Assembly (NCBI RefSeq): GCF_003003795.1
Contig: NZ_PVWK01000097.1
Coordinates: 62,001 to 126,000 of the forward strand
Length of the DNA: 64,000 bases
Reading direction: 5' to 3'
Source: Stenomitos frigidus ULC18
Lineage (GTDB): Bacteria; Cyanobacteriota; Cyanobacteriia; Leptolyngbyales; Leptolyngbyaceae
The notes under the pieces are model-generated. The model ran no database searches, was not told the DNA's origin, and worked only from the letters and a program-made list of their open reading frames with translations. Position numbers and translations under genes: made by a program. Position 1 is the first letter of the stretch, and each line of letters begins with the position of its first letter. Of this stretch, positions 41,059-42,766 are shown in pieces.

Positions 41059-41850
41059 TTACAGGTTTAAGGCTAGCTGAAGCTGCGACTTAGAGCGGCT
41101 TTCTGGCAACGGTGTCGGATTCGCGCTAACAGCCGAGCAGTAACGAGCAAACGTGCAGCGATCGCACTGCCGTCCAGGCTGTGGCTCCCAGCCGCGATCG
41201 TAGCGCAATCGCACTGCGAGATTGCTAACCATCGTTTCCACCTTCTCCTTGTGCTCAACAGTGGCCTCAAACTGAACTTTTTCACCTGTGCGTAGAAAGA
41301 GTAGGCTAAGGTATTTCAAACTCTGATGGTAAGTTTGCTCCAAGGCCAGGTAATACAGCCCAATCTGTACATCAATTTCGGTTGCGTCTGGCAGCTTCAC
41401 TTCGCGGCTGGACTTGTAGTCAATAAGCTCTAAGCCATCTGAGATAAAGTCAAGGCGATCGTACCGCCCAGTAATCAAAAACTCCAGGTTTTCGACCTGC
41501 AAGAAGCCTTGGATTCTACCCTCCACTGCCAGCGGCTGCGTTAGAGCAACTTTGCTGGCAATGAAGCGGTAGTAATAATTCTCTAAAATTTCAAACCCTT
41601 CTGATACCTGACTGGCGCTTAATTCTGTAGAATGCTGCCGCCAGCAGTGATGCACCCAATGTAAATCTGGTAGAGGCTCTTCGTAATGCCAGTCCCGATG
41701 GCATTGGGCAAGCGCCTGGTGAAGCGCAATACCCAACGAGGCTGAGCCAAAAAACTCATTCGTCGTTAGCCTTCGCTCATAGCGGAGGTAGTAGGCATAA
41801 GGGCAGCGGTTATATGCCTGAAGCTTCGTCGCTGAAATTTGGTAAGCCAT
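41059..41850 (-). CDS. PD-(D/E)XK nuclease family protein with iron-sulfur cluster ligands
   Basis: The 263-aa protein carries the RecB-like nuclease motifs: GIALHQAL (GxxxH), GRYDRLDF (GxxD), LELIDYKS (D and ExK-type Lys) and QIGLYYLAL (QxxxY). A first Cys (NRCPYAY, C16) and the C-terminal CDRCTFARYC cluster would bind a 4Fe-4S centre, as in Cas4 and AddB. No cas genes or helicase are near, so it is a stand-alone DNA exonuclease-type protein. Relatives occur widely in cyanobacteria, with probable roles in repair. Confidence 0.9.
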   Translation of the reverse strand: MAYQISATKLQAYNRCPYAYYLRYERRLTTNEFFGSASLGIALHQALAQCHRDWHYEEPLPDLHWVHHCWRQHSTELSASQVSEGFEILENYYYRFIASKVALTQPLAVEGRIQGFLQVENLEFLITGRYDRLDFISDGLELIDYKSSREVKLPDATEIDVQIGLYYLALEQTYHQSLKYLSLLFLRTGEKVQFEATVEHKEKVETMVSNLAVRLRYDRGWEPQPGRQCDRCTFARYCSAVSANPTPLPESRSKSQLQLALNL

Positions 41851-41964: not shown

Positions 41965-42201
41965 TCAGTTGTTTTGCCCGATCGGACGCTTAAACAAGGC
42001 ATCCAGGTAAATACGCGAGGCTTGACGATGATTCTGCTTTTCGGGAGCGGAATCGGCGCTACGGTTTTGCAGTAAAAACAACGACAGGGCAGCCGCAAAC
42101 ACTCGGTCTTGATCCCAGTCAGGGCGTATTTCCAAATAATGCTTGAGCGAATCGTGCAGAACTTCAGGAACTTCAACTAACAGGCTAATGGTGCTATTCA
42201 T
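41965..42201 (-). CDS. DUF2811 family protein
   Basis: The ATG at 42199-42201 gives a 78-aa protein beginning MNSTISLLVEVPEVLHDSLKH, the conserved start of DUF2811, followed by PDWDQDRVFAAALSLFLLQN. A longer frame to 42315 adds residues unlike the family. It has the look of a ribbon-helix-helix-like or small helical protein, found almost only in cyanobacteria. Function is unknown. GGAGA is about 11 bases upstream. Confidence 0.88.
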   Translation of the reverse strand: MNSTISLLVEVPEVLHDSLKHYLEIRPDWDQDRVFAAALSLFLLQNRSADSAPEKQNHRQASRIYLDALFKRPIGQNN

Positions 42202-42586
42202 AGAAATTTTAGTTCTCCCTCTACTGGACAGGGTGAATGGTGGACATCTGAGAGCGCATGCGTCTAAGGCAGCAGAAAGCAGCGCAAAGCTAGACCTGAC
42301 TGGACACAACACCACCGCCGCAATGAAGACAGAGTGGGTTTTTACCAGTAACTGGTCAGCGCGCTTTCAAGCAGGTCGTCACATTGTGCAGTTGCTTTCA
42401 CTGTCTTGTCAATGCTGCGAAATGTTACGCCCAACTTTAGCCAATCAAAAGGTTCACGAGAGAATCATAGTTTGAGGCACTTTTTTGTTACATAACATTA
42501 TGAAGTTCACCCGCTTTTCCACCTCTGTACCCAAATGTCCCCAGTGAATCGATCGCGGCGGCAAAGCCCGATTGTTGCGTGGAGCC

Positions 42587-42680
42587 TGTGGAAAACTCAA
42601 GTAATCCTGTGGAGAACTTGTGGATTACGTGTGGAGAAGACGCCCCGCACTTGTGGAAACGATGTGGATTTTGTGGGGAA
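42587..42680 (+). promoter_or_regulatory. Array of seven DnaA-box-like 9-mers (candidate oriC or DnaA-regulated site)
   Basis: On the plus strand, boxes start at 42587 (TGTGGAAAA, the exact complement of TTTTCCACA, the cyanobacterial DnaA box), 42608 (TGTGGAGAA), 42619 (TGTGGATTA), 42630 (TGTGGAGAA), 42652 (TGTGGAAAC), 42663 (TGTGGATTT) and 42672 (TGTGGGGAA). Start-to-start spacings are 21, 11, 11, 22, 11 and 9 bp, close to whole helical turns. An inverted near-match lies at 42515-42523. An AT-rich segment follows directly. The box assignments are seen in the sequence; origin function is inference. Confidence 0.7.
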
Positions 42681-42766
42681 AAATGGGTGCAATGATAAGA
42701 ATTGCAAAAAGTGTAAAAGTCATCGGTTAGCAGCTTTTTATGGGTCGTCTGACCAGCAGCTAACAC

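Follow-up and report, generated by a model that had tools for sequence, protein, structure and literature searches.

A phased array of DnaA-box sequences upstream of a cyanobacterial DUF2811 gene is a predicted DnaA-bound control element

The seven-site array at positions 42587-42680 of the window (the whole 64,000-nucleotide stretch analysed here) is probably an element through which bound DnaA controls the promoter of a gene, DUF2811, whose product is predicted to work with or downstream of DnaA. The array looks like an ancient control element placed before DUF2811, and since this gene is retained while dnaA is present and tends to go after dnaA is lost, the pattern points to DUF2811 as a so far unrecognised partner or target of DnaA. 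From sequence comparison we infer DnaA binding, regulation of either sign (activation or repression) and the function of DUF2811. The original prediction had set a replication origin beside a titration or regulatory locus as alternatives; the regulatory option is now favoured because the array stays with DUF2811, usually at a fixed distance from the promoter, and does so in paralogues and on some plasmids as well, while the origin is disfavoured by a dnaN-linked array with a DnaA-trio elsewhere in the genome.

The box array, its locus and the replication origin

The array is confirmed as a real row of DnaA-box sequences. All seven sites start where the original prediction had placed them, all read TGTGG[A/G] on the plus strand and are thus boxes of the minus strand, and their spacings of 21, 11, 11, 22, 11 and 9 bp agree with the 9-22 bp that had been proposed. 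By a definition of TTnTCCACA with the third base free, the CCACA core intact and at most one mismatch, six of the seven are boxes: TTTTCCACA (42587..42595), which is the last box, nearest the promoter, and is conserved in relatives; TTCTCCACA, a motif match that occurs twice (42608..42616 and 42630..42638); and, each with one mismatch, TAATCCACA (42619..42627), GTTTCCACA (42652..42660) and the box-like TTCCCCACA (42672..42680). The seventh, AAATCCACA (42663..42671), is a weak site with two mismatches. As many as six same-strand boxes fall within 110 bp in the window, whereas 200 random sequences of 64 kb, generated by a first-order Markov model, reached at most two. Across the 7-Mb genome TGTGGANAA occurs 208 times, against 145 for its reversed control, and close box pairs are confined to a few clusters. 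TTTTCCACA has been reported as the DnaA box of cyanobacteria, and paired boxes are bound in vitro by purified DnaA domain IV of Cyanothece (PMC4674748).

The genome to which the window belongs is that of a cyanobacterium near Stenomitos and Tildeniella. The array is flanked by the 3' end of mrdA/PBP2 and by the 5' end of the DUF2811 gene, which are 640 bp apart and both on the minus strand. The DUF2811 gene (41965..42201) encodes 78 aa and matches PF10929 with an E value of 1.1e-23; a comparison of the protein with NCBIfam gave no match. Between array and gene, and likewise on the minus strand, lies a promoter-like TTGACA-18-CACAAT (42383..42412), with 183 bp between the starts of the last box and of the -35. 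The AT-rich neighbour of the array that had been described is present and contains a conserved 11-mer, GCAATTCTTAT (42695..42705, minus strand), upstream of the array relative to the gene and, in many copies and families, separated by about 45 bp from the first strong box. Comparison across relatives also delineated three minus-strand blocks, GGGGACATTTGGG (42530..42542, GGGGATTT-like in other families), TATGTAACAAAAAAG (42480..42494) and ATTCTCTCGTGAA (42453..42465). No Rfam leader or sRNA model scored near its gathering threshold at the locus. PBP2 was considered as the gene to which the array is linked and was rejected: close relatives (four loci, L020-L023) keep the array there, and more distant ones have no array at that place. 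Directly 3' of DUF2811 and on the same strand is a PD-(D/E)XK nuclease gene (41059-41850) with Cas4/AddB-like matches.

In cyanobacteria oriC is usually linked to dnaN or dnaA. Neither gene is in the window, as the original prediction had noted: dnaA lies at G000:C147:19203 and dnaN at G000:C26:26641, on another contig and directly preceded by its own array of eight TTnTCCACA boxes, which occur in both orientations. One of these boxes is followed by CTCTACTACTACTG, a DnaA-trio; among the loci scanned, a trio of this kind follows a box at 16 of the 26 linked to dnaN and at none of those at DUF2811, the window array included. The trio is an unwinding element, and its position close to a box pair is a criterion for oriC (PMC8287927). 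Of the features that mark oriC, the window array therefore has the cluster of DnaA boxes and neither the trio nor the linkage to dnaN or dnaA. A look-up of dnaN and a GC-skew analysis had been proposed as checks. The former turned out against an origin; the latter, taken over the window, shows no switch, a result that weighs little, as many cyanobacteria have irregular skew (PMC7198777). The phasing of the boxes and the AT-rich stretch next to them would suit a chromosomal replication origin, main or secondary; nevertheless, since this genome has a trio-bearing origin of eight boxes at dnaN and a second DUF2811 array, since none of the DUF2811 arrays scanned has a trio, and since the boxes mostly share a single orientation and the window shows no skew switch, we regard an origin at this position as very improbable.

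Arrays upstream of DUF2811 across cyanobacteria

DUF2811 is near-universal in Cyanobacteriia. We surveyed 129 copies from dnaA-carrying genomes of 35 families, counting boxes up to 700 bp upstream, and found two or more same-strand boxes at 108 of them, compared with 2.0 expected in shuffles. A conserved position in relatives, which the original prediction had named as worth checking, is thus borne out, the array being kept upstream of DUF2811 in 32 of the 35 families. The boxes lie predominantly on the strand of the gene (375, against 35 in the opposite orientation), and of the 228 spacings that do not exceed 60 bp, 199 measure 11, 21 or 22 bp. When the copies were compared with the boxes as anchor, the distance from the last box to the -35 of the TTGACA...CACAAT promoter was 182-184 bp in 64 of the 83 copies scored; with 181-185 bp allowed, the number is 65, drawn from 16 families and from plasmids. 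This spacing is near-fixed, yet the gene itself lies anywhere between 78 and 449 bp from the -35. Further conserved blocks lie between the last box and the promoter across copies.

The linkage extends to additional copies of the gene. In this genome a second box cluster (C125) precedes a second DUF2811 gene, and three of five plasmid copies examined have upstream boxes; the plasmid copies L250-L254 are found in Acaryochloris, Nostoc and Leptolyngbya. A search of a phage collection for DUF2811 returned no copies. The array is absent within 700 bp upstream, despite the presence of both dnaA and DUF2811, in families f9 and f15 and in three g38 genomes, the latter having lost the boxes and kept the flanking elements. 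In the small-genome family f2 there are two to three DUF2811 copies per genome (L089, L092, L108, L134, L136, L138), several of which have, in place of a tandem array, a box facing an inverted box 44 bp away.

We also searched 39 related genomes for exact tandem TTTTCCACA pairs (the reversed control gave 0) and assigned clusters by hand tally among the matches listed, using protein matches and DUF2811 coordinates. Among those matches there are at least 91 clusters in 30 genomes: at least 26 at dnaN, at least 36 at DUF2811, at least 19 at the 3' end of guaA, at least two remnants near hemJ and at least eight others. The guaA cluster, by this tally present in at least 19 of the 30 genomes, occupies the convergent gap between guaA and a neighbour that we take to be DUF3318-like; in L012:5442-5502 (G000:C7:52441-52501) it consists of three TTTTCCACA boxes, all perfect, at spacings of 31 and 21 bp, and it looks like a titration-type site. 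At L198 (G013) and L215 (G009), two perfect boxes 21 bp apart lie near a hemJ-like gene, and a second DUF2811 copy appears to have been lost at both; a hemJ-like gene also follows DUF2811 in the second copy of the present genome.

These clusters bear on the idea that the window array is a titration or reactivation locus of the datA, DARS or DnaA-box-cluster kind, sequestering DnaA or resetting its nucleotide state, with DUF2811 a mere neighbour. Dense and conserved boxes away from the origin would fit such a locus, as would the persistence of remnants without DUF2811 at L198 and L215 and the existence of another conserved cluster, at guaA, that resembles a titration site. We nonetheless judge it unlikely as the explanation of this array, which also accompanies paralogous and plasmid copies of the gene and stays at its set distance from the promoter, and whose gene is itself lost with dnaA. 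Titration and promoter-control roles could coexist.

Retention of DUF2811 and dnaA

Across 141 Cyanobacteriia genomes, 124 carry both dnaA and DUF2811, 13 neither, four DUF2811 only and none dnaA only, so that every sampled genome without DUF2811 is also without dnaA (Fisher P 3e-15, shared ancestry being ignored). The groups with joint losses number at least five, namely two genera of f22 together with f27, f34 and f25. Co-retention was predicted beforehand for a set of 147 genomes of family f22, which partly overlaps the 141, and DUF2811 was present in 137 of the 137 genomes with intact dnaA. In the ten without intact dnaA it was absent from six, weakly matching in three and represented by a good copy in one (G331). 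In that genome dnaA is broken by stops and DUF2811 is still good, while in the dnaA-less G175 the DUF2811 match has two in-frame stops; these intermediates of decay suggest an order in which dnaA was lost first and DUF2811 after. Pieces of dnaA with in-frame stops were located at G331:C1:2163448-2164774 and G368:C95:26689-28002, in two genomes of one genus whose dnaA losses are apparently recent.

The boxes follow a similar course. The dnaA-less G085 is without the array and its dnaA-carrying sibling G149 has it, and fewer boxes are found at DUF2811 in G209, G293 and G331. Of 23 genomes that lack an intact dnaA, 19 have no exact tandem box pairs, whereas all 17 dnaA-carrying comparison genomes have them (Fisher P 7e-8); two of the four exceptions (G331 and G368) retain dnaA remnants. 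Clusters at oriC, at DUF2811 and at other places mostly vanish jointly upon the loss of dnaA, and this joint disappearance, together with the identity of the sequence to the cyanobacterial DnaA box, leaves it very improbable that a different DNA-binding protein recognises the TTTTCCACA-like sites and that the link to dnaA is indirect, for example because highly polyploid lineages have lost control of replication in general. Such a protein would accord with the missing array in some dnaA-carrying genomes and with the further conserved blocks, which suggest additional regulators.

Proposed control of DUF2811 and comparison with known systems

Three features of a DnaA-regulated promoter are found here: boxes conserved upstream of one gene (32 of 35 families), a constrained geometry (182-184 bp in 64 of 83 copies, and 183 bp in the window) and sites that depend on the presence of DnaA, with residual boxes after some losses. 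The sequence evidence for a predicted DnaA-dependent, promoter-linked element is strong. DnaA would bind the phased same-strand boxes, probably cooperatively, and would act from there on the TTGACA-18-CACAAT promoter over a near-fixed distance; transcription of DUF2811 may thereby track free or ATP-bound DnaA, and the product may be a small regulator or effector in the DnaA pathway. Against this control of DUF2811 by DnaA stand the distance of about 180 bp between array and -35, which is unusual and far for a simple activator or repressor, the missing array in f9, f15 and the three g38 genomes, and the array remnants near hemJ without DUF2811 in G009 and G013. Disruption of dnaA in Nostoc 7120, Synechocystis 6803 and Synechococcus 7002 caused no growth defect under optimal conditions (PMC7198777), so any such control of DUF2811 is not essential in those three strains.

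The protein itself gives few structural leads. An AlphaFold model from five sequences reached a pLDDT of 62, which is low confidence, and a PDB search gave no convincing match. The sequence pattern had led us to guess at a ribbon-helix-helix fold, but neither the PDB search nor comparison with an approximate three-sequence profile of that fold (hhalign probability 0.3) supported it. DUF2811 is named in no paper of the searched literature, a collection outside which most subscription journals fall. It is plausible, though short of probable, that DUF2811 is a dedicated cyanobacterial DnaA regulator and that array and gene have formed a feedback loop since early in the class, in which DnaA would sense itself through the array and set the level of a small protein that in turn would tune initiation or another DnaA function.

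For cyanobacteria that carry DnaA and replicate without need of it, the role of the protein has been called unclear (PMC7198777). The locus described here is a concrete candidate DnaA target in species where dnaA is deletable, and it suggests what this DUF family, near-universal in cyanobacteria, may do, as a possible component of the DnaA pathway beyond the regulators known from E. coli and B. subtilis. The feedback loop, if true, could explain why DnaA is kept by species that no longer need it for replication.

The closest parallels to the proposed control element are promoters that DnaA regulates. Such promoters include mioC and fliC of E. coli, and in B. subtilis there are eight DnaA-bound intergenic regions. 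The present array resembles these in placing several intergenic boxes upstream of a gene, away from oriC, and differs in being tied, in most of the cyanobacterial families sampled, to a single gene family that is uncharacterised, in its long and near-fixed distance to the promoter (182-184 bp in most scored copies) and in that the gene is lost along with dnaA. With datA and DARS1/DARS2 of E. coli and the DnaA-box clusters of B. subtilis it has in common that they are non-origin clusters conserved within a bacterial group. Those loci are defined by titration or by a change of the nucleotide state of DnaA, whereas the array is tied to a promoter and is also found on plasmids; the cluster at the 3' end of guaA is closer to their type than the DUF2811 array is. 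Finally, the array has the same TTTTCCACA boxes as the cyanobacterial oriC beside dnaN, but it is mainly same-strand and without a trio, in contrast to the oriC of this genome with its boxes in both orientations and its DnaA-trio.
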